Source of the DNA: a virus
Virus record (IMG/VR): IMGVR_UViG_3300031857_001386
Location: 1 to 23,876 of that record
DNA length: 23,876 bases
Direction: 5' to 3' (one strand)
The position numbers were made by a program, and so were the translations under genes. This document shows, one piece after another, positions 1-19,703 of the stretch. A model generated the notes under the pieces. It had not been told where the DNA came from, made no database searches, and saw only the letters and a list, made by a program, of their open reading frames with translations. The number at the start of each line of letters is the position of its first letter. The first letter of the stretch is position 1.

Positions 1-3000
1 TTTCCTGAACCTCACCATCTATCATTGAGAATTCTTCCGGAAGCAAACCAATCTTTTGATCAGCAAATTTTGCCTCATCATAGATCTGATTAACAAGAGC
101 AGCAGCTTCATCAAGTTTTCCTTGCTCACGTAATTTTACAGCTTCCTGTCTTATAAGTTCAACATCTTCGTTGGCACTTGAGAAGTTAACCCATGAATTC
201 TGGCCTCTGGTTTCAGTTGTCATAGCTCTACGCGCCAAAGGAGAGTACATTCTTGCATGCACATTCCATGCATTCTCTTCTCCCTTAGGTCCAAATGAGT
301 TACCTAGCTCAGCATGACCAAAGAAGTCGTGAACAGCTCTAAATAAATCATTAACCAACATAGGTTGGTTATTGACATCAGTAAATTCAGTTGTTGCTAA
401 TAGTGGATTTGCAGCACGTTGTTCCGGAGTAATTGGTGTATCTCCAAAACCAGCTTCAGTAGAGAATATTCTAATGCGCTTATTGTTGCGCAGATCTTCG
501 ATCATTTCTTCAGAGTTAGCATAAGGCTCCTCATTGTTGATCTCTACAACATATCCGGCATCTAAGAAAGCTTTATATTGCTCAATAGTTTCTTTTGCCA
601 TGGCTTCATAAGCCCTTCTGACCTCTGGGTCATTAGGGTTATCCTCCATAGCTTCATAAGCAGCGGCTATCCTTTTTGCTCTTTCGACATCGAATTCTGT
701 CGTACCTTCATACGTCGGTCTTTGAGATCCGAAAACTCTTTGAAAGTATCGATTAGCAATTTCTGCAACTGCCTTGAGCGGCTCGTTGAAGAGTCTATTT
801 CCAGCTTTTGGTTTTCCTTTTTCATCTTGTGCTAAATTAGTTTGTTTTTGCGTATCCTGCAAATTTTCTTTAATATATTGCTTCTCTACTTCTTGGTATA
901 CAGTCTCAAACTCAGCTTGCTCAACAACACCAAGTTTGTTCTCGCGATCACGGATAGCAAAGTCAAGAGCTTGTTCACCGGTAAGTTTAACCGTGTTACC
1001 AAGTCTATCAGTTACTACAACAGCTTGAAGTGCGCCATTATCGTCGAACTCAAAGCCATCCTCGTTGATCTCCATGGTCGGGGTGTCTATCACAATCACC
1101 TCTCCGTTTGGCATAGCTGCCTCTACGCGACCATTGTTGTCTGATAAAGTTACTTGTTGTCCATTGACTTCGGCTTCGACGCCATTGAAGTATTTTTCGG
1201 CTCTGATTTTTTGGACCGCTTCAGAAGTTCTTCTAGTAGGGCTAGCTGCCCCTGCTTTGGTAGTTGCGACAGTTTCAGTCTTTGTTCTAAATTCATAGTT
1301 ATCTAATTTATCTGCAATGTTTAATAATTTCTCAGACATGGCAGCCTTTGTCTCAGGGCTGTATTGATCCGACTTTTCTAGTTGCTCTACCTCATTAAAG
1401 ATGGCTTCAATAGCAGTGTCAATGTCATTATCGTTGATGAACTCAGCGTTAGACATCTTATCCATGATTGGGTTTATAGTGGCCCCAAGACGAGCCTCTG
1501 CACCCATATCTGCAATGTATTGTGCTACTTCTTCTTTACCTTTTTTGGTAGCTTCTTTAAGTCCTGTTTCGGATTCTCCTTCCGCCATTTCTCCGCTAAC
1601 TGCGGTTCCTGACTGTACAGGTACTTCACCTGTTGTTTGCTTTTGAACGGCATCTTTACTTATTTTATCTAGTTGGTTATTAATTTCAGCGACACGCTCC
1701 TTTTGAGCAGTAACTAATGCAGGGTCGCTTTTATCTATTTCCTTCTGTAATCTATCTCTCTCAACAATAAGATTGAACGCATTCATTCTATCTCTGTCTG
1801 AAAGTTGTTCTGGCATGCTAGATATTATTCCGTCAATTTTGTTGATGGCCTCTAATTGTGCATTAGCTTCTGACTTAGTGATATTACCTTTAATCATTTG
1901 AGTCTTTAGGTTTGCAACCATCAACTTTTTGAACTCTGTATCTGTAGCTACATTTTCTAAAAACTTTAAATCGTCTTCGCTGTATAGTGAAATATTGCCT
2001 CTAATTAATCTTTCGCCAATAACACCAACAGCCCCCATGGTCTTACCACCAACCATCTCAGCAAGACCATCTTCAAAAACCTTAAATGCTGTCTCCTTAA
2101 ATCCATCTGGAGTTTCAAAGAATTCACCTTTAGTTAGATTTTTCTTCTGCTCTTCAGTTAGATCTTTAGACATCCACCAGTTAGCTACATCTTTCCATCC
2201 TTTATCAAGAACTAATGACTGAGTTGCTCCAGTTTCAAATTCAGCTAATCCTGCCTGAGTTATTTTGATAAGTCCCTTAGCTAACATGCTTTGGACTTCT
2301 TTTTCAGCTATTTTTTCAAGCGCATCTACAGTTGCATTTGCGCCTAATTTTTTAGCCGCTTTTAAAGCAACACCCATTAATACTTTACCAGCAAATGAAT
2401 CACCCTTTACTAAGTTGTTTAAACCAACATTTTCAAGGACACCCATTGCTGCTGCATATGGCACAGCAATTAATGCTCTATCTAATGATGAGCTGTATTG
2501 GAAGTCAGGATCGCTAAGCATCTCTTCCTCAATACCACTATATGCTTGTGCGGCTAGACCTACAAAAGAAGTAGCCTTGCCTCCAACACCAGAAGCCATA
2601 GCTGGGAGAGATTCTAATACACCACCAATAGCTTGAGTAAACCAACCTCTGTCTCCAGATTTCATGTACTCAAGTGTAGTACCCTCGCTACCTACTGCTT
2701 TAATAATTGATGCTTTGGCATCTTCTTTTGCTTGAAGGATAGCTTGGTTATCTAGTAAATTTTCAATCTGTTGCTTGGTTAGATTCTTGCCATTATATTT
2801 TAAGCTTTTATAGTATGCCTTTTCCTCTGGAGATAACTCGTCATATTTATCTTTACCAAGTGCTGCTTGATATGCAAATGGCTCAGCAACTACCATGGAT
2901 ACACCGGACAGCACCTTGTTAAGTAAATACCCAGCAGTCCCACCTTCTTTCTCTTTTGCAGCGATATATTTACCAGCTACATAGTTTAGTTTACTCTGAG

Positions 3001-4543
3001 ATGCAATGGTCTGATCTCTTTGAATTTTAAATTTTTGGCGTCTAGTTTCAATATCTTCAGCCTTATTGTCTATGAGTAATTTTTGCTCGTTGTATTGCTC
3101 CTGAGTAAGTAAGCCTGATTTTGCCAACTGATTAAATTTAGCAACCTCAATATCGTATGCTTTCATATCTGACTGTATATTCTCAGCTGTTTTTTGCAAA
3201 TCATTGAGCTGCATATCATAATTCTTGACATTGTCTTGAATTACTTCATCAGTAAGATAAGAGTTGATTCTGTTTTTAGCTTCTTTAATCTTGTTGGGAT
3301 CCTTAGTTTCCTTAGCATAATTATATTGATCATAAAGATCATTTAGCTTTTGCTCATATGTTTTATTAGCCTCAGATTTTTTCTTTTTGTAATCTTGATA
3401 TGCAGGTGTTTTATAGAACTCTTGTACATATTTAGTAGGTAAATCTACCCCTACAATGTGGTTTTGAATAAGTTCTTTTTGCTCCTCAAAAGACAATTTC
3501 TTAAACTGATTTTGAAAATCCTGATCTATTATTTTCTTACCTACATTGACTGATGCTTTTGCCGGATCTTTTGCATCCCAACTTGTTCTTTGCCCAGTTT
3601 TTGGATCTGCATATTCAAGCTTTCTTAAAGTTCCTACAGCATCATAATATGTTTTACTATAAGCTTTAGTTGCATTTTCTTCTAAGAATGCTTTTAATTT
3701 AGCAGCTTGCTCTGGATTCTTTTCATCAAATTCAAATACCTCTTCTTTACTACCATCTTGAGTCTTGACTCTAATTCTGTCAATAGCAAATGCACCTTCT
3801 TCTTCGAATGTGAATCCGTATTTGGCGTAGTTTTTAGTTAAATAATCAATAGCCTTCTCTTCAGTTTGTCCAACAAAACTAGACGTAATCTCTTTAAAAT
3901 TCTTAGGTGGTAATGTAGTAGTGGGTACAATTTTAGTACCTACTGATTGACCATATCGCTTGTTTAATGCATTTATTGATCCTTCATTCTTGATGGGTAC
4001 AAATTCACTACCAGGAGTTTTTCGTTCCCATTGGTTGTTATTTATACGATATAAATTGTCTTTTTTCTCTTCGTCGTAATTAGAGAAAACTTGCTCCTCT
4101 TGAGAAACAGACGCGTCTTTTTTGAATTGATAGTTTAGATTTTTTATCCTATTAGGATCTGTAATCTGAGAGTACTTTGTCTTAATAGTGGTATTTGGTG
4201 CATCTTTACCTGAAGATACAACTGCTTCTTCATACCATGCATTATTCTTAAACTTATATCTCTTAGCTTCTTTACCAGGATATCCTGTAAAAATCTCACC
4301 GTCTGATGACGCCGATGAACCAGTCCCCGAGGTGGAGTCCGTAGTGCCTGGGCTTTTTTTTTTAAAATAACTAGAGTAAAACGAATTAGCATCTAGGTCA
4401 GTCATTCCTTGATCTTTTAAGTAAGACCAAACTTCCTGAGCTTTCCCCTGATCTGAATATTTACTGAAAAATGTGTTAGCATCTAAATCTGTTAACCCAT
4501 TCTCTTTTAAATAATTATAAAGCTGTTGCTGCTTGTCGTTCAT
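1..4543 (-). CDS. giant internal virion (ejection-type) protein, partial at left edge
   Basis: This frame is open from an ATG at 4543 to the window edge, so at least 1514 residues are visible and the C-terminus is missing. Residues 8-60 hold two copies of a 30-residue motif (YLKENGLTDLDAN, then YLKDQGMTDLDAN). A Ser/Thr/Gly linker (about 64-81) follows, then two related Y(K/R)xxNNxW..DPNR/ALNK-type units (about 88-140 and 158-198). Long charged helical stretches come next, then Gly/Ala-rich, weakly hydrophobic segments in the middle that could insert in a membrane. Near residue 1405 lies HDFFGH, followed by GEENAW and TETRGQNSW. It follows a 229-aa and a 482-aa protein, as the giant gp16 follows gp14 and gp15 in T7, so a role in genome ejection is inferred. 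A virion RNA polymerase, as in crAss-like phages, is possible, but I saw no polymerase motif. The role is tentative; the reading frame is certain. Confidence 0.75.
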   Translation of the reverse strand, partial: MNDKQQQLYNYLKENGLTDLDANTFFSKYSDQGKAQEVWSYLKDQGMTDLDANSFYSSYFKKKSPGTTDSTSGTGSSASSDGEIFTGYPGKEAKRYKFKNNAWYEEAVVSSGKDAPNTTIKTKYSQITDPNRIKNLNYQFKKDASVSQEEQVFSNYDEEKKDNLYRINNNQWERKTPGSEFVPIKNEGSINALNKRYGQSVGTKIVPTTTLPPKNFKEITSSFVGQTEEKAIDYLTKNYAKYGFTFEEEGAFAIDRIRVKTQDGSKEEVFEFDEKNPEQAAKLKAFLEENATKAYSKTYYDAVGTLRKLEYADPKTGQRTSWDAKDPAKASVNVGKKIIDQDFQNQFKKLSFEEQKELIQNHIVGVDLPTKYVQEFYKTPAYQDYKKKKSEANKTYEQKLNDLYDQYNYAKETKDPNKIKEAKNRINSYLTDEVIQDNVKNYDMQLNDLQKTAENIQSDMKAYDIEVAKFNQLAKSGLLTQEQYNEQKLLIDNKAEDIETRRQKFKIQRDQTIASQSKLNYVAGKYIAAKEKEGGTAGYLLNKVLSGVSMVVAEPFAYQAALGKDKYDELSPEEKAYYKSLKYNGKNLTKQQIENLLDNQAILQAKEDAKASIIKAVGSEGTTLEYMKSGDRGWFTQAIGGVLESLPAMASGVGGKATSFVGLAAQAYSGIEEEMLSDPDFQYSSSLDRALIAVPYAAAMGVLENVGLNNLVKGDSFAGKVLMGVALKAAKKLGANATVDALEKIAEKEVQSMLAKGLIKITQAGLAEFETGATQSLVLDKGWKDVANWWMSKDLTEEQKKNLTKGEFFETPDGFKETAFKVFEDGLAEMVGGKTMGAVGVIGERLIRGNISLYSEDDLKFLENVATDTEFKKLMVANLKTQMIKGNITKSEANAQLEAINKIDGIISSMPEQLSDRDRMNAFNLIVERDRLQKEIDKSDPALVTAQKERVAEINNQLDKISKDAVQKQTTGEVPVQSGTAVSGEMAEGESETGLKEATKKGKEEVAQYIADMGAEARLGATINPIMDKMSNAEFINDNDIDTAIEAIFNEVEQLEKSDQYSPETKAAMSEKLLNIADKLDNYEFRTKTETVATTKAGAASPTRRTSEAVQKIRAEKYFNGVEAEVNGQQVTLSDNNGRVEAAMPNGEVIVIDTPTMEINEDGFEFDDNGALQAVVVTDRLGNTVKLTGEQALDFAIRDRENKLGVVEQAEFETVYQEVEKQYIKENLQDTQKQTNLAQDEKGKPKAGNRLFNEPLKAVAEIANRYFQRVFGSQRPTYEGTTEFDVERAKRIAAAYEAMEDNPNDPEVRRAYEAMAKETIEQYKAFLDAGYVVEINNEEPYANSEEMIEDLRNNKRIRIFSTEAGFGDTPITPEQRAANPLLATTEFTDVNNQPMLVNDLFRAVHDFFGHAELGNSFGPKGEENAWNVHARMYSPLARRAMTTETRGQNSWVNFSSANEDVELIRQEAVKLREQGKLDEAAALVNQIYDEAKFADQKIGLLPEEFSMIDGEVQE
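4364..4522 (-). repeat. tandem 30-residue N-terminal repeat in giant protein
   Basis: Two successive copies, residues 8-37 and 38-60 of the giant protein, share the core YLK(E/D)(N/Q)G(L/M)TDLDAN(T/S)F(F/Y)S(K/S)Y with exactly 30 residues (90 bases) between equivalent tyrosines. The DNA is also similar but diverged, so this is an old duplication. It looks like a small docking or sorting motif placed at the extreme N-terminus. Confidence 0.8.
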
Positions 4544-5994: not shown

Positions 5995-6683
5995 TATGGT
6001 TGGTAGTTTGTTCCTTGTAATATACTAAGACCATAAGCAGCTTGCTGTTCTTTAGTAAGTGGACCACCTGGAGCAGTATATGCTGTATTAGCAGTTAATG
6101 CATTCCAGCTTTGTTGTGCTTTGTTACCTTGTTTTTTATAAAGACCAATTAAGTCATCCAAACTTGATGCCGCTGATCCTGCAAATCCAAGTGCTCCCTC
6201 AATAGCAGCATTACGATTTGCAATAGCTTCAGCTCGTCTCATGTTTTGTTCTTGAACCTCACCTATTCCAGCCATCCAATCTCTTTCAGCTTTACGAGCT
6301 CCTATTCCAAGTTCAGCCTCAGCTTGAGCCATATCTCTACCATACTGAAGTTGATTTGCTTGAGCAGCAAGAGCCATGTCTTGCTCGTTGCCTGCTGCTG
6401 CTAACTGACCTATACCACCTAAAACACCTTCAGCACCTGTGCCTTGTAATGCACCAACCATCTGAGCCTCACGTTGAGACTGTTGCTGTTGGGCCATCTC
6501 AAGACCAAGTGTAGGTACCTGTAAGGCCTTGAATGGATTGGTTTCTTTAATTTGTTTTAGTTGCTGTTTTGCCAATGCACTAGCTTGTTCAGCTTGTTTC
6601 ATTTGGCTTTGTGATTTGATAGCCTGAGCGGCACTAACGCCAATTCCCCCTAAGGCTACTAATGTTGATGTTACTGCTGCCAT
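5994..6683 (-). CDS. small Ala/Gln-rich internal virion protein, gp14-like
   Basis: The product is 229 aa. A short apolar N-terminus (TLVALGGIGVSAAQAI) is followed by a long Ala/Gln-rich helical body with EMAQQQQSQREAQ, a Gly-rich break near 80-95 (GTGAEGVLGGIGQLAAAG), further helices, and a Gly/Pro/Tyr tail. This composition, with an apolar start and no enzyme motif, fits the small internal core proteins (T7 gp14-like) that enter the outer membrane at ejection. The ATG lies inside the last 13 bases of the upstream GNAT gene, which argues for translational coupling. It leads the set of three putative ejection proteins. Function is inferred from composition and position. Confidence 0.7.
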   Translation of the reverse strand: MAAVTSTLVALGGIGVSAAQAIKSQSQMKQAEQASALAKQQLKQIKETNPFKALQVPTLGLEMAQQQQSQREAQMVGALQGTGAEGVLGGIGQLAAAGNEQDMALAAQANQLQYGRDMAQAEAELGIGARKAERDWMAGIGEVQEQNMRRAEAIANRNAAIEGALGFAGSAASSLDDLIGLYKKQGNKAQQSWNALTANTAYTAPGGPLTKEQQAAYGLSILQGTNYQP

Positions 6684-7078
6684 ATCTTTATCATTTCAGT
6701 GCAGTTGTTTGATCCTTTTTCAAATCCACATGCTGCATATCGGTTAATCAAATTTTCGTTCTTCAAAGAAGTGTAGAAGTATTTAGTTCCATTTGTTTCA
6801 GCAGCTACCTCAACAAGTGATTTTATTAATAGTTCTATCGCTTCTTTGCGATCGTTTTGTCTATATTGAAAGTTTGATACGATGTACTCAATCCAAGCCG
6901 TCTTTGAGTTTGTAAAGTAAATAAATCCAGCGCAAATATCTTCACCATCTTTACTTACCATTAATCCACCCCTTCCGTCTTGCGGTAGCATATCTTTTGG
7001 TGGTGCTGACCATCTCCAGTCCTTCCACCATTGGGATAATACATCGTAGTCTCGGTCATCTAAAAACCTAACTTCCAT
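6671..7078 (-). CDS. GNAT-family N-acetyltransferase-like protein
   Basis: The product is 135 aa, the usual size for a single GNAT domain. It shows the expected order: an N-terminal strand with a substrate-side helix, the central strands DICAGFIYF and TAWIEYIVSN, a basic turn (YRQNDRKEA) at the position of the acetyl-CoA pyrophosphate loop, and the C-terminal pattern NENLINRYAACGFEKG typical of the family's last helix-strand. The loop is not a textbook Q/RxxGxG/A, so activity is unproven. Small GNATs of this type are common among phage structural genes, but their targets are unknown. It follows the 256-aa tail gene by 9 bases and overlaps the next gene by 13. Its ATG is 4 bases from a TAnnTTTG box. 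Confidence 0.75.
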   Translation of the reverse strand: MEVRFLDDRDYDVLSQWWKDWRWSAPPKDMLPQDGRGGLMVSKDGEDICAGFIYFTNSKTAWIEYIVSNFQYRQNDRKEAIELLIKSLVEVAAETNGTKYFYTSLKNENLINRYAACGFEKGSNNCTEMIKIWQQ

Positions 7079-7082
7079 GTAA

Positions 7083-7090
7083 CAAATTTA
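7083..7090 (-). promoter_or_regulatory. TAnnTTTG box before GNAT gene
   Basis: On the minus strand this reads TAAATTTG, matching the Bacteroidota -7 consensus TAnnTTTG. Its TAA is also the stop codon of the upstream 256-aa gene, and only four bases (TTAC) separate it from the ATG. If used, the message would be leaderless or nearly so. No convincing -33 TTG is seen, so it is a candidate only. Confidence 0.4.
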
Positions 7091-7858
7091 AGGAAAACTT
7101 TTGAATACTGCGGTGCTAACAGCAAATAGCTCTATTTCCGGAGTAGCGTCAGATCCACTTCTTGATAGTGTAAGGTTAAGGAAGTATCCTCTTGTTCCGT
7201 ATGATTCAGCAGATGATGATTTAAAAGATACCAAAAAATCACCAGGTTGTAATGGTGTAGCAAATGCAGCATCTAATTTAATCTCATTATTGGACTGATC
7301 TACGTAGTCTATTGTTCCAACATAATTAACGCCTGAAATCATAGTACCAGCAAATGATGCTTTATAAATCTCATCCCCTTTGCTAATATTTGTGAACTTG
7401 CTTTGAGTAGTTATAATATCAGGTGCTGTTGTAGACAATACATTTCCAACACCTTGAGCAGATATTAGGTCAAAATTGATTTGATTTACTGGCCTTCTCA
7501 TATATGAATACCATTCTCCTTCTTTATTTACAAATTGAGACATACTCATTTGGGCATCATCAAGATCTGTATAACCAACAAAATTTAATGGATGTGTACA
7601 GTCAAGCGCTAACGTCTTGAACATTTTTATCTCTGTTGGCGATTGGTTTATTACAGTTGATATACTAAATCCATATAGAGAATTAATAGGTTCATTGTAA
7701 AACTGAGTCCTATTTATATTAGTATCATGTTTATACAAATTACCATTCTTAAATGAATAGAATGAACTATTCAATCCCATCATCCACTCAGGGCGATAAG
7801 TCCATCTAGAAGTCCATCCCTCAGCTTTATCTGAAAAAGTAAGCGTATCTATAACCAT
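7088..7858 (-). CDS. tail protein with GWTS muzzle C-terminal domain
   Basis: The product is 256 aa. The N-terminus holds DTLTFSDKAEGWTSRW (residues 4-19), PEWMMGLN (23-30) and FYSFKNGNLYKHD (33-45). I recognise this series from the C-terminal part of large tail stabilization/muzzle proteins of crAss-like and other Bacteroidota podoviruses. There it follows directly after a Y-D-P-x-x-x-x-Y strand in the same polypeptide. Here it is a separate gene, 3.6 kb downstream of the 1317-aa muzzle gene. The rest is beta-rich and ends in a strand-rich 40 residues. No signal peptide or enzyme motif is seen. It probably assembles in the tail with the 1317-aa protein. A TAACTTTG box lies 4 bases before its ATG. 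Confidence 0.65.
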   Translation of the reverse strand: MVIDTLTFSDKAEGWTSRWTYRPEWMMGLNSSFYSFKNGNLYKHDTNINRTQFYNEPINSLYGFSISTVINQSPTEIKMFKTLALDCTHPLNFVGYTDLDDAQMSMSQFVNKEGEWYSYMRRPVNQINFDLISAQGVGNVLSTTAPDIITTQSKFTNISKGDEIYKASFAGTMISGVNYVGTIDYVDQSNNEIKLDAAFATPLQPGDFLVSFKSSSAESYGTRGYFLNLTLSRSGSDATPEIELFAVSTAVFKSFP

Positions 7859-7876: not shown

Positions 7877-8794
7877 TTAGACTAAGCAGCTTTTCATGCT
7901 TTTGATCATTTGATAATAGTAATATGAGCACCTATTTGTATCTACCGTCAGATTTGTACCAAAGGGTAAAATATGCATATATGACGCTTTGTGAAACATG
8001 CCTTGATTATTATTCATTACACCGGCATTATGGAAAAAATAAAGCTCATCCCATAAACTAGATGGACACGTAGCCCAAGCAAAATCAAAGTCTTTAGGTA
8101 CCTCAACATGATGTCCAAAAAACCAAGCATTCCATAATTCGGCCCACATGCTTGCTGTCCAAGCCTGTATGCCGTTTGGATCTCCTTCTTTTTTAATGTG
8201 CTGCATTTCAGTTAATAGATTGTATAGCGATTTACTATCTTCTTCAACTTTCTTCCAGTAGTGAGATGTTAAGTTCTTCATAAGTTTTTGAGCTCCTCCA
8301 CTTCTATTCTTATTAAACTCAATTAACTTTTTTGATATACCCACTTGATTACACATTGCGTCTAAGATCTCTTCTCCCTTGCTCATGATGTAGTCATAAC
8401 CTATGTATGAGATAGTGTCTGAGAAGTACCATATGTCATCCTGAAGATATGGAGTAAAGTCCATATACTTGGTGAAAACAAAGTCAGCATCATGAAAAAA
8501 AATTGCATCGTTTATTAGATCAGGATGCTTCTTAAAGTGCTTTTCCAAAAGATGTGCTTGTATAGCTGGTGGGTAATTACAGTCACCCATTGTATCCTTA
8601 TAAAAAAAGAATCGAGCAATATCACTATAAGTCTGATATAACTTATTCCAAGATTCAGGTATCTCATCTTGATAACCAGCAACTATGTCAATGTTTTTGT
8701 AACCTAATGAAGCGAAGTTATGTATACATACCTCAATCTGCCATGCATAGTAGTCAAGCGCTGGTTGCGCTGACAACATCCTAAGTGTTTTCAT
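7877..8794 (-). CDS. glycosyltransferase-like protein
   Basis: The product is 305 aa, soluble, with no signal peptide. Features that suggest a GT-A-type glycosyltransferase are FFHDADFVF (99-107), where D102-A-D104 would be the metal and nucleotide-sugar DxD; SGGAQKLM (165-172); a Trp-rich stretch AWTASMWAELWNAW (211-224); and FFHNAG (253-258), similar to a C-terminal His found in such enzymes. The N-terminal strand and helix (LRMLSAQP...WQIEV) resemble a nucleotide-sugar binding start. Related phage proteins are familiar to me, but I cannot name a substrate. Its ATG overlaps the stop of the fiber gene (TAATG at 8792-8796), so the two are coupled. This makes the Thr-rich fiber the obvious candidate acceptor. 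That link is inference; a sugar decoration of the host surface is an alternative. Confidence 0.6.
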   Translation of the reverse strand: MKTLRMLSAQPALDYYAWQIEVCIHNFASLGYKNIDIVAGYQDEIPESWNKLYQTYSDIARFFFYKDTMGDCNYPPAIQAHLLEKHFKKHPDLINDAIFFHDADFVFTKYMDFTPYLQDDIWYFSDTISYIGYDYIMSKGEEILDAMCNQVGISKKLIEFNKNRSGGAQKLMKNLTSHYWKKVEEDSKSLYNLLTEMQHIKKEGDPNGIQAWTASMWAELWNAWFFGHHVEVPKDFDFAWATCPSSLWDELYFFHNAGVMNNNQGMFHKASYMHILPFGTNLTVDTNRCSYYYYQMIKSMKSCLV

Positions 8795-11448
8795 TAACAG
8801 GTTTTACTTGCGCCGGTCCAGTTTGATCCGTTCCACTCATACGCAACATTTGTAATTAAATTTAAATACCAACCAGCGGGCGCAGGATCTGTGCCAGCTA
8901 AGTTTGTAAAGATATAATTTCCTGGAACACCAATAGCTCCATTGACGTAATAATTATCAATATCAAGAACTGAGCAAACAGATGATTGTGAAGAAGAGTA
9001 TGACAGCGTAATCGGAGTCAATGGCGCAGCTGTCGTAGTCGTTGTCGTCGTTGTCGTAGTTGTCGTCGTTGTCGTAGTTGTCGTCGTTGTCGTAGTTGTC
9101 GTTGCTGCACACTCTGAGCAGCTACCATACGTATAAAATATAGTTCCATTGACAACACCTGGGCCTACAGACGCTGTTATTGTGCAGCAATCTCCATTAC
9201 TATCTTTTACATAATTAGGAAGCGTCAACGCGCTAAAACCTGTGTATTGCAATAATACAGCTGCACCGCCAACACATTTTGTGCCTGAGTAGTATCTAAC
9301 AGGAATAGTTGTTGTAGTTGTAGTTGTGGTTACCCCAGAGCATGCAGATATATTAAGTATTTGACCTGTATTTGCAATAAGACATGCGTAAGTAATTCCT
9401 GATTTTCTAACTAGATACCACAGGAAACCTCCATTAAATAATGTTGTAGCGCCTGCATTAGTGTAAACAAAACTGTTTACTGCAAATGTACCTGTGTGAT
9501 AGTAGGTTATATATGTAGGCGTTTCTAGGCATGCCGATCTAGCTGTTGTAAATCCACTTGTATCAATATCAAAACCAGTTACAGGAGTTGCTGTTGTGGT
9601 TGTCGTAGTACTTGTAGTTGTTGTAGTTCCTGTGCATGCTGTACAATCTGCATATATAACGACAGGCGTTAGCATATTGTAATATGGTGATGATGCTGTA
9701 GCTACTGAAGATATCCTCCAGCAGTTTCCATCAGTTGTTTTAACTATATTTCCGGTCACAATAACAGCCGCGGTAGTATCTCTTAATACGACAGATACTG
9801 ATGGATCTGAACATGAATCTGCATTATAATAATTACCAGCAGGAAGTGTCGTTGTAGTTGTAGTTGTAGTTGTCGTTGTGGTTCCAGCACATGTGCTTTC
9901 ACCTATAACTGTACCATCCTCATCTATTTGTATTGTATAGTCTGAGTCATTTATATAATACCACTTACCGCCACCCATGAATGGTTTTAGTGCTTCAGGA
10001 TCGTAGAAAATTGTATCTGTAGTATTTGGGATATATCCATTACCATTAAAATACATTAATGTGAATGTAGGTATAACCAAACAAGCGTCACTTCCAGATT
10101 CTTTAAATTGCTCCACATCAATTAAGAATGGTTTAAGGTCTCCAGGATTAGTAACGTTAACAGGTATTACAGCAGCAGATGATATTCCAAAGCAGTTTGT
10201 TGCTCTTAGTGTAATTGAGTAGTTCCCAGCCGGACAGTTATTAAAGTATATAATACCGTCTGAAAAAACAGCCTCATTTGGTAATGTACTTGCTAGAATA
10301 CTCCAAGATGTTGGGTTGTTTACAACTTCTATTATTACATTTTCTACTGTATTTGTATCAACATTTATAGGGTCTGCAATAATAAAAGGAACGGCAAATT
10401 CAGAACATCTGCAACTTTGTTTTGAAGTAACATCACCTGTAGATCCTACGGTTATGTAACTTAAGTTTGATATAGGAGGAGTAACACATAGAATTGTGTT
10501 TATAAGGTGAAGATAATCATCTCCAACATATACACTTGATCCGTCTGAAGAAGTAAATAGTTGGTCGCCAACACTTGGTAATACATCTGTTCCATTATGG
10601 TATAGAGAAAAATCAGGACACTGACTACAAACATCTGATGGTATTCCAGCTGCTCTATCAAAGTAAAATTGTGTTAAGTATGGACTAATTTTATTTACAA
10701 TCCATGTTGATCCACTGAATGGCGATGATACAATTAAATTAGCTTCTCCGGTTGGCAAATTTTTATAAAACTCAATAACACCTGTTCCATTATCAATAAG
10801 CCCTGTATATGGAGCTATTAATCCAATTTCATCTTCAGGAACACCTGCTGCTATTAATGCGCTATAATTAGATGATGAATTAATCCCAACATACTTTGTA
10901 TCAGCTACAATCTCACCATTCCATTCAACTTGGTATCTTGTAGGTTGATCAGGGTCAATGGTATTAAAACTAATACCAGCTCTCCCGATATTAGCTCCAT
11001 AATTCATTTCAATTGATCGACTTTCAGTTACACCTTTATAAGAGGCAACTGTATTCATTTTATCCTCATAATCCCATAATAAGTACACATACTCATAGTT
11101 GTTTGGATTAGAGAATACAAACTGACCTGTGAATACACCGCCTGATAAAACAACAGGTATTTCAGTAGCAAGGCTAAGTATTGTTGACTTGTCATCGGCA
11201 GTATAGGCAACATTAGATACTAAATAGTAAAGCTTATTATTTAGTGTCGGGGCAAGTTGTCTGTAATCAGCTAATGCATCACCAGCAACAACAGTTACGG
11301 TAGATCCATTATAAGGAACATATCCAACACCACCAATACCTGTAGATGAATCAAACAAAGCAATTGCACTTCCACTTAATACCACATTATCAATGGTATA
11401 TGTTGAGCTACCTGTGTAGCTAAAAGATTGTTTAGTTTTTGAACTCAT
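8794..11448 (-). CDS. modular tail fiber / receptor-binding protein with poly-Thr linkers
   Basis: The product is 884 aa. The N-terminal 430 residues are beta-rich (Gly, Ser, Asn, Tyr) and include an Ig-like stretch near 380-430. From about 448 to the C-terminus, modules of roughly 70-90 residues are joined by threonine runs: 12 Thr (523-534), 5 Thr-Ser-6 Thr (608-619), 8 Thr (707-714) and 24 Thr (783-806). Two module kinds alternate. Type A (535-607, 715-782) has YY....C, VK...G(N/D)C and C..C. Type B (about 448-522, 620-706, 807-884) has an early Cys, a GG..WY or GWY core and a final C. No enzyme motif or signal peptide is seen. This is the layout of a mucin-like stalk with binding heads. 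It overlaps the muzzle gene by 17 bases and is coupled to a glycosyltransferase-like gene. Confidence 0.75.
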   Translation of the reverse strand: MSSKTKQSFSYTGSSTYTIDNVVLSGSAIALFDSSTGIGGVGYVPYNGSTVTVVAGDALADYRQLAPTLNNKLYYLVSNVAYTADDKSTILSLATEIPVVLSGGVFTGQFVFSNPNNYEYVYLLWDYEDKMNTVASYKGVTESRSIEMNYGANIGRAGISFNTIDPDQPTRYQVEWNGEIVADTKYVGINSSSNYSALIAAGVPEDEIGLIAPYTGLIDNGTGVIEFYKNLPTGEANLIVSSPFSGSTWIVNKISPYLTQFYFDRAAGIPSDVCSQCPDFSLYHNGTDVLPSVGDQLFTSSDGSSVYVGDDYLHLINTILCVTPPISNLSYITVGSTGDVTSKQSCRCSEFAVPFIIADPINVDTNTVENVIIEVVNNPTSWSILASTLPNEAVFSDGIIYFNNCPAGNYSITLRATNCFGISSAAVIPVNVTNPGDLKPFLIDVEQFKESGSDACLVIPTFTLMYFNGNGYIPNTTDTIFYDPEALKPFMGGGKWYYINDSDYTIQIDEDGTVIGESTCAGTTTTTTTTTTTTLPAGNYYNADSCSDPSVSVVLRDTTAAVIVTGNIVKTTDGNCWRISSVATASSPYYNMLTPVVIYADCTACTGTTTTTSTTTTTTATPVTGFDIDTSGFTTARSACLETPTYITYYHTGTFAVNSFVYTNAGATTLFNGGFLWYLVRKSGITYACLIANTGQILNISACSGVTTTTTTTTIPVRYYSGTKCVGGAAVLLQYTGFSALTLPNYVKDSNGDCCTITASVGPGVVNGTIFYTYGSCSECAATTTTTTTTTTTTTTTTTTTTTTTTAAPLTPITLSYSSSQSSVCSVLDIDNYYVNGAIGVPGNYIFTNLAGTDPAPAGWYLNLITNVAYEWNGSNWTGASKTC
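9031..9102 (-). repeat. poly-threonine tract with 18-base tandem repeat
   Basis: Twenty-four consecutive Thr codons (ACA, ACG, ACT mixed). Within them 9043-9096 is three perfect copies of an 18-base unit, read on the plus strand as tgt cgt cgt tgt cgt agt, followed by a partial copy. Because the unit is six codons, gain or loss of a copy leaves the fiber in frame and only changes linker length. Confidence 0.9.
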
Positions 11449-14400
11449 CTTTACCTAACGTTATAATATTGAAATCTGTTCTAGGTCCACGCCCTTGTAT
11501 TAGAGTGTAATCTATTGATGTATTACAATAAGTGACTCTAAATATTACACTCCTTTGCGTACCCGTAGTATTGTTTTGAATTCTAGCATATATGTCTTGA
11601 GAACCTACACCTGATTGACAATACGGAGGTAATTCAACCCAATTAGTTCCAAATCCATTATTAATTACAGCAATAGACCAACTTGTAGTTCCAGATAAAG
11701 CAAATAAATATTCAAGTTCCCCAGCTGTATTATATGGAAAACTACCTGCCGTTGGATTAATTGTTATATCACAAGGCGTATTTCTTCTAGATGTGGAGGC
11801 AAATACATAGTTTTGATTATATGGATCATAAGCTCCAAGTTTTGCCATATTAGGCGTGCTAATCATTAGATCTCTAAAGTAATCAGACATACCCATTCTA
11901 GATATCTCCATTACTTGATCACCATACATTTCAAGTACTGCCCCTCTTCTTGCATCAGAGAAATACATTTTATTCCCCCAAGTAGCAAAGCTTTCTGGAT
12001 TTGATGATATACCAAATTCATAAGGTAATGCAATCTGTGTTCCAAGTACTTCAGGCACTGATGCAACTGATCCACCGCCAACAGCATCAACTAATAAATT
12101 CTTACCATATAAAACTGATGTAATCTTATCTTGATGCAATACAATTAAGTCAGTAGTTCTAGCATATAGTTTCTGAACTGAACCAAAGTTCTTATCTAGG
12201 TTTTTAAAATTTGCTGTAGATAAATTAAACTCATTGAGTCTATTTATTGATGAATCCCATCTATATAGACCACTATAAGTAAGTGATGCTTCTTTTACTT
12301 GTTGTTCATAATCCTCAATAACACCACTAGCTCTTAAACTATACTTTAACCATGGTTGATTAAATCCATCAAGAATCCTGTTAGACTCTACACCATTACC
12401 ATAGCAATAAGCATTATAGTCTGAGTTTTTATTATTGGTGTTATTTAAGACAATGACTGCACCATTTAGTGAACTAGTTTGGTTTTTGTCAAAGCTATTG
12501 TCTGAAACTCCTCCAGGTATATTTGCAGTTGCAGCTGCATAATCAATTTCTATAGAATATCTATTAGGAACACTGACAACATTATAAAAACCAGCAGGTA
12601 TGTTTGTAGCTGTCACATAAACTGATTGACCGTCTTGAAAATAATGTGGCAGTCTTTGTGGATCCTGCACTAAATAAACATTGCTTCCATTTGCAACACA
12701 TTGATCATAACTCCATAACGCTATGTGGTTGCCATTAACAATCGGATATGTTCTACTCATTTCATAGTAGATGTCCACATCGTCATTTGCAGGCACAGTT
12801 TCAGCAGTAAGTTTAGATCCTGGAGGCGTTTGAGTTATTTTCAATTGAACAGATATTTCATTTCTGCTAGATCCTTGATTTAATCCAAATCCTCTTACCA
12901 ACATCCATTTTTCAGAACTAGCAGGATCGACTTCAATAACATTACTAGTAAATCCAAATGTGCTATATGATTGAGTTACATCAATAGCATTTCTAAATGT
13001 AACGGCAGCAGCATGTATATCTGTTCCATTTTGATTGTATTGTATAAATGACTGATATGCTCCAGATTGCCAAAACCATTCCTCAATATCTGCATAATCT
13101 TTATCTGATACCCAAGACATAGAAGTAGCATTTTGGCCAGGTGCATTTATAGCTGCACCGTCATTTAATATATCGATTGAAATATTTGCACCTGCATATA
13201 TTGCTCCTGGTCCTTTTATAGCAGCATGGCCACCATATACTTGAGGATCATAAGATGCTAAATAAGGAGTATTTGGTTTAGGTAAGCCATATCCTCCATT
13301 AGGTTGTAATGGTGTTCCTTGGAATTGAGTTCCACTTCTAACATTTATAACCCATTTATCTCCATTTGTATATCCACTTGAAGAGTCAAAATTAAAAACC
13401 AATGTGGTATCGCCGGATGTTAATGTTATAGGTGATGTGCTAATTGGTAAGTTAGCTATCCACCAAGATTGAGCTACATCTGTGGTCCATCTAAATGTAG
13501 TTGAGTTAAGTATTTCTATAGAAATCCTAACATCGTCTAATGAACTAGAAGACGATTGGCTTACAGATATTCCTGGGCCCGTATTCGGTGTTCCATTAAT
13601 AGAATAATATATAGGAGCGGAAATATAGAAAATATTGTTTTGTGCAACAGCAGGTGTTTGAGTTCCTGATGAATTGTTATCAGGACCTCTTCCACTTCCT
13701 AAATATGAATAAGTGTTTTGAGTAGGTATGTCTAAAAAAGTATCTATATAATCAGCTTTAATCTTAAAATATAACCCTTCTAAGGCTCCAGGTATATTAT
13801 TAAAACCGGATTGCTTATACTCAAGCTCAAGTACTTTGAATTTTTTATTTGAGTTTGTTGGGGATCCGTTTGCTGACTTAAATATTATATATCCATTAAC
13901 CTTTATCTTATCTCTATCAGCTTCGTTAATTAAAAAATATCTATATAAATTATCCTTTAAAAAAGTAACAGGAAACAAATTATAATACTCTCCTTTAGAC
14001 TGCTTAACAAATAATCTGTACCCAGTAGCCCATACAGGAGCCTCATTCTTTATATTAACAACCAAAGAATTTGCAGTACTTGAGTTATCTGGAGATATAT
14101 ATACTGAGTTAGACTGATTATTGCCTGGAGTTGAACTAGTAGATGCCCCATCAACAGATGTTAATATAGTAGTCATTCGACCATAATCATCTAAATAGGC
14201 GATACCAATCTCATAATCTCGATCGCTTCTCCATGTTTGTTTTGGTAGTGATGTGATGGGCTCTGAAATATAATCTACAGTATAATTAACATCTATAAAA
14301 TCATTTGTACTGTATCCTATTAAATCTCTGAATTGAGTGTAATTACCCATAACTAATCTACTCCCAATGATATCTTGAGCTAAAGCTTTAAGAGGCACGT

Positions 14401-15385
14401 TGTCAAATAATCTAGTTACTTGATCTGAAGGAAGAGCTGCGTATGTTTTATTATTCATAAAGAAGAAACTATACGTAGAATTATCTTGTATACCTATTTC
14501 TTCCTTATTTAACGTCTCAACAATTTTTACATTAAGAGTTCTAGACTCCCAAACTAATAATTGAATTTCCTTAACAAACTCATTTCCAGTTTCAAATGTA
14601 ACTTCAACCTGATTAAATTCATTAAGCATGCCTTTATTTTCACCTGTCTCTATATCAATATTCAAGAATTTTGGATTGAATGCTGTAGATGAAAATGGAG
14701 ACATTGATGAGTACTCATTATCTAAGTACTTATATCGATAGCTGAAATAAACAAACTTGTCCTCAATATTATTTGGGTCTAATGTTGTAGACTGAAGTGT
14801 GCTTAATGATATAAAAGGCGAGTTAAGTGGTGGAGCGACAATTAGATTAATATCGTCGTCAATTCTAGTATCATTAACGCTATATGTCTTGCATCTATTA
14901 ATATTAATCTTTCTAGGTGGGTTTAAGTTGTCATTCCAAATAAGAAAACCACCACCCATACCGTCAGTAATGTAGTTAACACCAGTAATTAGATAATTAG
15001 CGTCAAAATTCAATCTAACATTATTTGAGTTTGGTATTTGACATCCAAGTACTAACAATGATGCATTAGTAATCTCATTGTATTCAAATATACCCTCAAA
15101 GTTATCAGCCTTTACAAACCAATATAATAAGTTTGATGGCTCATATGCTAATGCTCCTATAGTAACCGCATTTACTGCCGCAGGGATCTGGTAACTAGCA
15201 AGTATGTTATTTATGTTTGTTGTTAATGTGTTACCAAGGGAATTCTGAACAGCACCAATATTTGATCCTTCTGATGTGTCAATAGTTATATTTACCGCAT
15301 CACGGTATTCTCCATCAGGAACTAACCTCTCATCGAGGTCTTTGTTCATTCTCCCGGCAAGAAATGTTCTTTGTAGGTCAGCCAT
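11432..15385 (-). CDS. tail muzzle / stabilization protein with C-terminal BACON-like domain
   Basis: The product is 1317 aa. The N-terminus carries MNKDLDERL..GEYRDAVNI (13-33) and SEGSNIGAVQN (39-49), the hallmark of the large tail stabilization (muzzle) proteins of crAss-like and similar podoviruses. Below the portal this protein forms the outer tail tube. The body is beta-rich with many Asn, Ser and Tyr residues. At 1184-1196 a strand GAYDPYNQNYVFA is followed not by the expected GWTS domain but by about 95 residues (1205-1298) resembling a BACON domain: SFPYNTAG, TTSWSI, TNWVELPP, an NNTTGTQR turn, and a final strand ending in Q. The missing GWTS domain is in the gene at 7088-7858. The ATG lies 2 bases after the upstream stop, and the stop overlaps the fiber gene by 17 bases. 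The family call is strong; the domain split is inferred. Confidence 0.85.
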   Translation of the reverse strand: MADLQRTFLAGRMNKDLDERLVPDGEYRDAVNITIDTSEGSNIGAVQNSLGNTLTTNINNILASYQIPAAVNAVTIGALAYEPSNLLYWFVKADNFEGIFEYNEITNASLLVLGCQIPNSNNVRLNFDANYLITGVNYITDGMGGGFLIWNDNLNPPRKININRCKTYSVNDTRIDDDINLIVAPPLNSPFISLSTLQSTTLDPNNIEDKFVYFSYRYKYLDNEYSSMSPFSSTAFNPKFLNIDIETGENKGMLNEFNQVEVTFETGNEFVKEIQLLVWESRTLNVKIVETLNKEEIGIQDNSTYSFFFMNNKTYAALPSDQVTRLFDNVPLKALAQDIIGSRLVMGNYTQFRDLIGYSTNDFIDVNYTVDYISEPITSLPKQTWRSDRDYEIGIAYLDDYGRMTTILTSVDGASTSSTPGNNQSNSVYISPDNSSTANSLVVNIKNEAPVWATGYRLFVKQSKGEYYNLFPVTFLKDNLYRYFLINEADRDKIKVNGYIIFKSANGSPTNSNKKFKVLELEYKQSGFNNIPGALEGLYFKIKADYIDTFLDIPTQNTYSYLGSGRGPDNNSSGTQTPAVAQNNIFYISAPIYYSINGTPNTGPGISVSQSSSSSLDDVRISIEILNSTTFRWTTDVAQSWWIANLPISTSPITLTSGDTTLVFNFDSSSGYTNGDKWVINVRSGTQFQGTPLQPNGGYGLPKPNTPYLASYDPQVYGGHAAIKGPGAIYAGANISIDILNDGAAINAPGQNATSMSWVSDKDYADIEEWFWQSGAYQSFIQYNQNGTDIHAAAVTFRNAIDVTQSYSTFGFTSNVIEVDPASSEKWMLVRGFGLNQGSSRNEISVQLKITQTPPGSKLTAETVPANDDVDIYYEMSRTYPIVNGNHIALWSYDQCVANGSNVYLVQDPQRLPHYFQDGQSVYVTATNIPAGFYNVVSVPNRYSIEIDYAAATANIPGGVSDNSFDKNQTSSLNGAVIVLNNTNNKNSDYNAYCYGNGVESNRILDGFNQPWLKYSLRASGVIEDYEQQVKEASLTYSGLYRWDSSINRLNEFNLSTANFKNLDKNFGSVQKLYARTTDLIVLHQDKITSVLYGKNLLVDAVGGGSVASVPEVLGTQIALPYEFGISSNPESFATWGNKMYFSDARRGAVLEMYGDQVMEISRMGMSDYFRDLMISTPNMAKLGAYDPYNQNYVFASTSRRNTPCDITINPTAGSFPYNTAGELEYLFALSGTTSWSIAVINNGFGTNWVELPPYCQSGVGSQDIYARIQNNTTGTQRSVIFRVTYCNTSIDYTLIQGRGPRTDFNIITLGKDEFKN

Positions 15386-18278: not shown

Positions 18279-19703
18279 TTATCCTTTGAAGATAAAGAAG
18301 TTGTTAGCACCCATTGTACAAAGCGCACGCTCTGACAAGAAGTTGACTTCCATAGCATCAAGGTCGCTAGTTTGAGCACCACCAGCTGAACCAGTCATCC
18401 AAGTTTTGTAACGACGGTTTTCAGCTTCAGAAGCACGGTAACGAACGTGAAGGAATGGACGTTTTGCATTCTTACCAAGTACTTGATCGTAAACGCTCAT
18501 TGTACCAGCAGGAACTAAAACACCATTGATAGCACCACCAACGATGCCGCCACGAAGAGTTGCGTCGTTAAGGTATTTCCAATCAGTCTTGTAGAACTCA
18601 TAACCACGACGGAAACCTGTGAATCCAAGATTCAAAGCCATTTCTTGGTTATTGTCAAACAAACCGTAAGAAGTACCACCAGCACCGTAAGAGTTTTGAG
18701 CAGCCAACATATCATCGATGTCAAAAGAGAACTGACGGTTCAAGAACAATACGTTCTCAGCGATAGCACCTTGCTTGTCCAAACGTTGTACAATTGTATC
18801 AAAGTCGCCCAAAGAAGATGGATTACCACCTGCCCAAACGTTACCACGAGATTCAATAGCAGCAAACATACCTTGAGTACCTGCATTGTAAGGCAATGTA
18901 GATCCAGCAGGGTAAGCAGCACTTCCTAATGCAGCAGCTGCACCTGAGTTAACTTCAGCAGGAACGCCTTCAACCATTGACATCTCAAGATAGTCTTCGT
19001 AACGTAGACGAGTCTCATGCTCAGACTTCATATACCAGTAGTATCCTGTAGCACCGTTTTCAGTAGTTACTTCAACCCAACCAATTTGAGCCATGTCAGA
19101 ACCAGCAACAGTGTACTTGTCTTTGATGATGATTGGTTTGTTATCGAAGAACAAATCTTGTGCTTCCAAAGATCCTTGCATACCGCTAGTACCTTTTTGG
19201 AATTCAGAACCGTAAACAAATGCAGTGAATGTAGCACCAGTGTCACCAGCAGCAATACCAGAAGCATTGTAGAAAGCAACAGTGAAACGATCAGATGCAG
19301 GAAGCGCAGTGATTACACCTTTGTAAGAAGATGTAGAAGATGCGTTGTTTGAAAGGAATACAGTTTGACCAATGCGGAAAACACAAGTTCCTGTACCGAT
19401 ATCAAAGACAACTGTATCGTCACCAGCAGTAGCACCAACAGCAGTAACCGCAGTGTATTTAGTGTGAAGACGACCTTGCTCTGCCCATTTGATCAAGTCA
19501 GAGTTAGTAGGAAGCTCGGCACCAACCATACGCAAGAAAGATGCGATTGAACGGTTACCATAGCGCTCGAATTCTTGCTCATAAGTATCAGGAAGATACT
19601 GATTCAAGAAGTCAAAGTTAGTAATGTAGTTTGTAGGCAATGTTGCCTTAACGGAACTCGGAGTTAAATTTACACCCGGAGATACCTGTAATGTACCAGC
19701 CAT
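18279..19703 (-). CDS. major capsid protein (HK97-fold, crAss-like type)
   Basis: The product is 474 aa, close to the usual length for this capsid type. The N-terminal part holds YEQEFERYGNRSIASFLRMV (about 41-60) followed by GAELPTNSDLIKWAEQGRLH. This NRSI..FLRMVGAE...SD...W.EQ.RLH pattern is what I associate with crAss-like major capsid proteins. The rest alternates strands and helices as in HK97-fold proteins, with the C-terminal part containing FLHVRYRASEAENRRYKTW. The start is ATG with an A-rich stretch five bases after the upstream TAG. Codon choice is visibly richer in C-ending codons than in the tail genes, as expected for an abundant product. It sits directly behind the scaffold gene and in front of a strong terminator. 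Confidence 0.88.
   Translation of the reverse strand: MAGTLQVSPGVNLTPSSVKATLPTNYITNFDFLNQYLPDTYEQEFERYGNRSIASFLRMVGAELPTNSDLIKWAEQGRLHTKYTAVTAVGATAGDDTVVFDIGTGTCVFRIGQTVFLSNNASSTSSYKGVITALPASDRFTVAFYNASGIAAGDTGATFTAFVYGSEFQKGTSGMQGSLEAQDLFFDNKPIIIKDKYTVAGSDMAQIGWVEVTTENGATGYYWYMKSEHETRLRYEDYLEMSMVEGVPAEVNSGAAAALGSAAYPAGSTLPYNAGTQGMFAAIESRGNVWAGGNPSSLGDFDTIVQRLDKQGAIAENVLFLNRQFSFDIDDMLAAQNSYGAGGTSYGLFDNNQEMALNLGFTGFRRGYEFYKTDWKYLNDATLRGGIVGGAINGVLVPAGTMSVYDQVLGKNAKRPFLHVRYRASEAENRRYKTWMTGSAGGAQTSDLDAMEVNFLSERALCTMGANNFFIFKG

Follow-up and report, generated by a model that had tools for sequence, protein, structure and literature searches.

We analyzed a 23,876 bp stretch of DNA, hereafter the window, comprising positions 1 to 23,876 of IMG/VR virus record IMGVR_UViG_3300031857_001386 and best explained as belonging to a podovirus whose relatives are phages of Flavobacteriaceae and, at a greater distance, crassviruses. 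Its minus strand carries an 884 residue open reading frame (ORF, 8794-11448) in which small modules alternate with runs of threonine (Thr), and, overlapping the stop codon of that gene by one base, a 305 residue ORF (7877-8794) encoding a predicted GT-A glycosyltransferase. The explanation that accounts best for these two genes, and that as a whole we consider probable, is that the first encodes a fiber of modular build at the tail tip of an uncultured Bacteroidota phage and the second an enzyme that glycosylates virion proteins at poly-Thr.

Architecture of the fiber

Beginning from the N-terminus of the fiber, residues 1-252 (10693-11448) have their homolog in the C-terminal part of gp114 of Cellulophaga phage phi18:3. 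The C-terminal half reads B-T-A-T-B-T-A-T-B, where A and B are two types of module and T is a Thr run, exactly as proposed in a first-pass annotation made from the sequence alone: module B1 (residues 439-521, 9886-10134); run 1, of 12 Thr (residues 523-534, 9847-9882); module A1 (residues 535-606, 9631-9846), unusually diverged in this phage; run 2, of 5 and 6 Thr flanking one serine (Ser) (residues 608-619, 9592-9627); module B2 (residues 620-705, 9334-9591); run 3, of 8 Thr (residues 707-714, 9307-9330); module A2 (residues 715-781, 9106-9306); run 4, of 24 Thr (residues 783-806, 9031-9102); and module B3 (residues 807-884, 8797-9030), the C-terminal head. The range of 8 to 24 threonines originally given for the runs is correct once the single Ser in run 2 is tolerated.

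Shuffle tests on the fiber's own copies support B1-B2 (z 8.9) and A1-A2 (z 5.5) similarity and were not significant for B1-B3 or for any A-B pair; the B2-B3 value (z 4.5) is inflated, because the B3 segment tested started within a Thr run, and that similarity is marginal. Profile-profile comparison, built from 31 homologs with the Thr runs taken out, returned expectation values (E) of 1e-20 for B1-B2, 9e-14 for A1-A2, 4e-5 for B2-B3 and 0.007 for B1-B3, each match spanning nearly the full module length, and E above 0.2 for all A-B pairs. The A-A and B-B matches combined with the lack of any A-B match indicate two separate repeat families, and the weak matches of B3 to B1 and B2 make it a diverged B. 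The claim that A copies resemble each other and B copies each other is thereby borne out, strongly for A1-A2 and B1-B2 and weakly for B3. Residues 253-346 (10411-10692), overlooked by the earlier annotation, may be a sixth B copy (B0) located off the Thr stalk, as a B1 hidden Markov model (HMM) matches them with E 4e-4 and also matches in most relatives.

AlphaFold modeling of the C-terminal half, using the 31-sequence alignment, predicted five confident beta-rich domains corresponding to the five modules, with B3 at a predicted local distance difference test (pLDDT) of about 90. Segments with pLDDT below 50 (model positions 89-100, 174-185, 275-280 and 351-372) correspond to residues 523-534, 608-619, 709-714 and 785-806, that is, to all or most of each of the four Thr runs. 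The predicted template modeling score (pTM) of 0.30 indicates that no fixed arrangement or orientation of the modules is predicted. The beads-on-a-string picture, as opposed to one continuous fold with buried Thr, thus holds in the model.

B1 matches phrog_21885, which is the B module type in the PHROG database; B2 has distant matches among small proteins of Cellulophaga phages; and in Cellulophaga phage phi18:1 the last of the tail genes encodes a single B-like protein on its own. For A1 no match was found among isolate phages. Pfam and NCBIfam searches with the fiber gave nothing above cut-off, PDB sequence searches with the fiber and its profile gave nothing convincing, and Foldseek comparison of the C-terminal half with the PDB gave no match at E below 0.001, although a multi-domain query may hide likeness of a single module. 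A viral structure library did contain similar uncharacterized proteins. The layout had been called unusual for a phage fiber, a description that needs qualifying since viral contigs often contain poly-Thr ORFs (a run of at least 10 Thr in 95 of 119 fetched pattern matches).

A predicted glycosyltransferase downstream

The first-pass annotation used 'mucin-like' as a figure of speech; the glycosyltransferase gene directly downstream turns it into a serious hypothesis. The encoded protein matches phrog_4417, a family of unknown function, over residues 5-301 in a full-length profile match (E 3e-65), and nothing in Pfam or NCBIfam above cut-off. Its AlphaFold model is highly confident (pLDDT 95.8), and the Foldseek matches listed against the PDB are GT-A glycosyltransferases throughout (best E 3e-7, probability 1.00), among them UGGT, COLGALT1, LARGE1, ABO transferases, XXYLT1, glycogenin and GlyE. 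Searching PDB sequences with the enzyme profile gave nothing convincing; a weak match to Geminin covered one helix only and was discarded. The two aspartates of the DXD motif (D102-A-D104) are invariant both in 16 diverse members drawn from the two phyla concerned, Bacillota and Bacteroidota, and in 47 members; G167-A168-Q169 is likewise invariant in the 16, and an HNAG motif (255-258) occurs in nearly all. Phrog_4417 is therefore predicted, on modeled structure and motif conservation, to be a previously unrecognized GT-A glycosyltransferase family.

Phages of Enterococcus, Lactobacillus, Lactococcus, Staphylococcus and Chryseobacterium have homologs at 30-38% identity, and cultured phages that carry the enzyme include Enterococcus phage phiFL1A, Lactococcus phages 1706 and bIL285 and Lactobacillus phage iLp84. 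Some members of the family are longer. The copy in a Bacillus prophage (L141:8001-9083) ends in an Arc-like repressor domain, a DNA-binding domain (phrog_3673, E 3e-18), and several other Bacillota prophage copies are about as long. Bacteroidota genome contigs L142, L152, L156 and L165 encode proteins of 560-640 residues with a phrog_4417 domain, and the remainder of the one at L156:7992-9692 matches phrog_15655.

Association of the enzyme with poly-threonine tracts

Homologs were gathered with the enzyme alone as query. Scans with an enzyme alignment yielded 80 viral and 40 bacterial genome loci; a scan of genome contigs with the single enzyme sequence had found none of the latter. A Thr tract lies on the same strand in the flanks of 125 of the 130 distinct homologs from Bacillota and Bacteroidota phages and prophages, and in 116 of them it lies in the gene directly adjacent. 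All nine isolate loci fetched have Thr-rich tracts in structural proteins.

Nearly all tracts in Bacillota phages (90 of 93) lie within 15 residues of a C-terminus, usually 1-5 residues from it, in proteins that include the major capsid protein, the major tail (tail-tube) protein and small structural proteins, with up to four tagged proteins per phage and often near-identical endings within one phage. As a control we searched with Bacillota major tail proteins from which the tag had been cut off, and counted only loci with enough flanking sequence. The protein was tagged in 17 of 17 loci with the enzyme versus 0 of 54 without it (Fisher p 1e-16), and relatives of the window's ring protein gave a similar division (9 of 9 versus 0 of 17, p 3e-7), both p values being inflated by sequence relatedness. 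On the tail-protein tree each trait needs 9 changes, and the 9 independent pairs are concordant, a number that falls to 3 when well-supported branches alone are counted.

These results bear on a simpler account, in which the Thr runs carry no modification and serve as flexible spacers between receptor-binding heads, with the enzyme acting on the cell wall, lipopolysaccharide, DNA or some other virion protein. Disordered low-complexity linkers between domains are indeed common, as are poly-Thr proteins with no such enzyme nearby. The enzyme, however, tracks the Thr tract rather than the host, the type of phage or the identity of the tagged protein, and a tract at the C-terminus of a Bacillota protein has no second domain to space. 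Its position there indicates that it behaves as a modification tag and not a linker, which makes a pure spacer senseless, and we regard the spacer account as unlikely.

Glycosylation at poly-Thr must itself be tempered by several observations besides the inflated p values. The template modeling score of the enzyme's Foldseek matches is about 0.45, at which the fold class is secure and the exact family, sugar and acceptor are not. The converse association is loose, in that Thr runs also occur without this enzyme, which accompanies only 6 of 27 loci having at least 10 consecutive Thr and adequate flank. At L178, a locus with a relative of the Bacillota tail proteins, a different protein, a 105 residue ORF (L178:6489-6806), ends in a C-terminal tag of 10 Thr and the enzyme was not found on the contig; this tag may be either a relic or served by another enzyme. 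Conversely, five enzyme homologs have no tract nearby, namely that of L129 and the extended proteins of L142, L152, L156 and L165. Among 20 neighboring proteins scanned at poly-Thr loci without the enzyme, one is a GT2 protein (L420), one has a weak glycosyltransferase match below cut-off (L415), and the others showed no such match. The L420 gene (L420:4240-5067, minus strand; PF00535) lies directly downstream of a different poly-Thr protein and perhaps forms an independent enzyme-tag pair.

Evolution of the fiber

The same fiber layout was found in 19 loci at 48-100% identity, and in others found afterwards. Across the 31-sequence alignment run 1 measures 10-16 residues, run 2 always 12, run 3 7-8 (in 31 of 31 sequences) and run 4 23-27. 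In distant relatives the heads drop to 23-62% identity, and the Thr runs mostly remain at 75-100% (with L040 an outlier at 45-75%). Thr codons are freely mixed in homologous runs. Conservation of the runs while the heads diverge, together with the mixed codons, indicates that selection maintains the Thr residues.

The same evidence bears on whether the runs are neutral products of DNA slippage. The DNA of run 4 is a perfect 18 bp repeat, and this run was probably expanded by slippage. Against neutrality stand the mixed codons, with Ser as the main replacement, the retention of run lengths across sequences less than 50% identical, and the dependence of the tract on the enzyme in the major tail control. 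Slippage as the sole cause is ruled out by the codon and length evidence, and we hold the neutral account as a whole to be very improbable.

A further possibility, compatible with glycosylation, is that the fiber is a modular adhesin whose A and B modules are interchangeable receptor-binding heads, with the repetitive Thr codons serving as recombination points. The A1 module of this phage reaches no more than 58-62% identity to any other A1, against 84-97% identity of its remaining modules to those of L016 (Fisher p 5e-9), which from sequence comparison looks like exchange or rapid change of one head. In the module HMM scan no B3 match was present in L071, L073, L074, L076, L082 and L084, and no A2 match in L105, L106, L110, L112, L116, L117 and L121; more distant loci (L108, L111, L113, L127, L130, L133, L136) carry unrelated cysteine-containing modules on the same Thr/Ser strings; and the lone B-like tail protein of phi18:1 fits the same picture. 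Yet within the clade the modules hardly vary in order or number, or the tracts in length, and module distances correlate among relatives (r 0.76-0.90), which indicates co-evolution of the modules and no free shuffling. Neither PDB sequence search nor Foldseek recognized a binding fold, and interchangeable heads leave the enzyme and the C-terminal tags unexplained. We judge the adhesin account to fall a little short of an even chance. The 'several swappable binding heads' of the first-pass annotation accordingly survive in part: single heads do seem to have been exchanged, lost or replaced, and most relatives keep five modules in the same order.

In the seven loci that lack an A2 match, the fiber and a large muzzle-like tail protein form one chain of about 2000-2200 residues. 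Phi18:3 gp114, whose C-terminal part is the homolog of the fiber N-terminus, is itself muzzle-like, was identified as a virion protein by tandem mass spectrometry and has no Thr run. Together these relationships suggest that the fiber probably sits with the muzzle at the distal end of the tail.

Genomic neighborhood

The nearest isolates to the phage of the window are Flavobacterium phage elemo, Maribacter phage Panino and Cellulophaga phages of the phi38:1 type, those of Flavobacterium and Cellulophaga being podoviruses; phi13:2 has been treated as an outgroup (PMC10172136). Directly upstream of the fiber gene, at 11432-15385 on the minus strand, lies the gene for the muzzle-like protein (1317 residues, phrog_14478), which had no match in the PDB and whose C-terminus looks BACON-like by eye, with no Pfam match. 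A 256 residue protein encoded at 7088-7858 (minus strand) contains the C-terminal domain of the crassvirus muzzle (PF25729, 29 bits versus a cut-off of 27). Here this domain has a gene to itself, separated from the muzzle-like gene by those for the fiber and the glycosyltransferase; the counterparts of the two muzzle genes are adjacent in phi18:3.

Two genes downstream of the glycosyltransferase, 6671-7078 (minus strand) encodes a GNAT-like acetyltransferase according to a weak Pfam match, and L032, L036, L040-L043 and L045 have ORFs comparable to it in size and placement; the protein might modify a glycan or a virion protein. Within the putative major capsid protein (18279-19703, minus strand), residues 73-139 resemble the Photorhabdus PHL/PLL lectins (phmmer E 6e-4), possibly forming a surface-exposed insertion domain. 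The ORF at 2-4543 (minus strand), at the window edge, contains two N-terminal stretches that look similar by eye (...ENGLTDLDANTFFSKYSDQ... / ...DQGMTDLDANSFYSSYFKK...). No tRNA and no Rfam RNA was detected in the window.

Proposed mechanism and significance

What the analysis shows is the architecture of the fiber, the predicted GT-A fold with its conserved DXD, and a close coupling of enzyme and tract across phages; from these we infer the activity of the enzyme, its use of Thr as acceptor, the sugar, the benefit of the glycan and receptor binding by the modules. The N-terminal part of the fiber would belong with the large muzzle-like tail protein, and its C-terminal half presents, on Thr stalks without fixed structure, five small, potentially disulfide-bonded beta-domains that fall into two families. 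In the cytoplasm of the infected cell, during virion assembly, the enzyme would attach an O-linked sugar to Thr side chains, the most likely acceptor being the poly-Thr run itself. Stalks so glycosylated may be stiff, soluble and protease-resistant, holding apart heads that perhaps bind receptors, much as mucin-type glycosylation does in eukaryotic stalks. In Bacillota phages it is the capsid and the tail tube that would bear tufts of sugar.

The presence of the same enzyme family alongside C-terminal poly-Thr tags in Bacillota phages suggests that the tract is a general, portable signal for virion glycosylation. We think it fairly likely that poly-Thr is an enzyme-specific tag of tailed phages, which phrog_4417 enzymes decorate at C-termini in Bacillota phages and along fiber stalks in Bacteroidota phages, yielding virions with a sugar coat or with stalks stiffened by sugar. 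Glycosylation of virions by phage enzymes is already known; the poly-Thr tag and the role of phrog_4417 appear new, as we found neither a phage poly-threonine tag nor a role for this enzyme family described in the open literature (subscription papers and preprints being outside the scope of that search).

If this is correct, glycosylated virion proteins, so far annotated as hypothetical, could be recognized by a short Thr run in their sequence in phages of Enterococcus, Lactococcus, Lactobacillus, Staphylococcus, Bacillus-type bacteria and Bacteroidota. It would also assign a function to a large unnamed protein family, account for fibers with beads-on-a-string layouts, and mean that virion glycosylation evolved more than once. 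An enzyme acting on plain poly-Thr would also be a useful tool for protein glycosylation, and the tag is simple enough for direct testing in cultured laboratory phages.

Relation to known systems

In the crassvirus PhiCrAss001 (PMC10172136) the muzzle is gp44, and the C-terminal domain of the crassvirus muzzle recurs here in the 256 residue neighbor, near the large muzzle-like protein. The fibers of PhiCrAss001 are docked at the collar, on tail hubs (PMC10172136), whereas the fiber gene of the window comes after the muzzle gene, and in relatives the two are fused. At the level of single modules, S0A289 of Cellulophaga phage phi17:1 has a fold that matches one fiber module with a root-mean-square deviation of 2.1 A over 88 columns, but it is a small 145 residue protein and not part of a Thr string.

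Mucin-type stalks of eukaryotes are rich in Ser and Thr and O-glycosylated. Like them, the fiber has Ser/Thr-rich disordered stretches between folded domains; unlike them, its runs are almost pure Thr, 8-24 residues long, with little proline inside and one phage-encoded candidate enzyme, and their glycosylation is putative.

Among phages, the closest parallel is in mycobacteriophages, whose capsid and tail-tube subunits are reported to carry C-terminal glycans added by phage-encoded glycosyltransferases (Freeman et al. 2023, as described in PMC12619734 and PMC12363180). The systems of Che8, Corndog and Myrna resemble the one proposed here in having a phage-encoded glycosyltransferase with virion targets, and their glycans (PMC12619734) fall on the same proteins, at the same C-terminal position, as the Bacillota tags. 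Che8 differs, however, in that its gp108-110 do not match our enzyme profile (E above 0.1, below zero bits), the C-termini of its capsid and tail-tube proteins are KTGS and SDGS with no poly-Thr, and its enzyme genes are remote from those for structural proteins. The poly-Thr system is therefore best read as analogous, rather than homologous, to virion glycosylation in mycobacteriophages.

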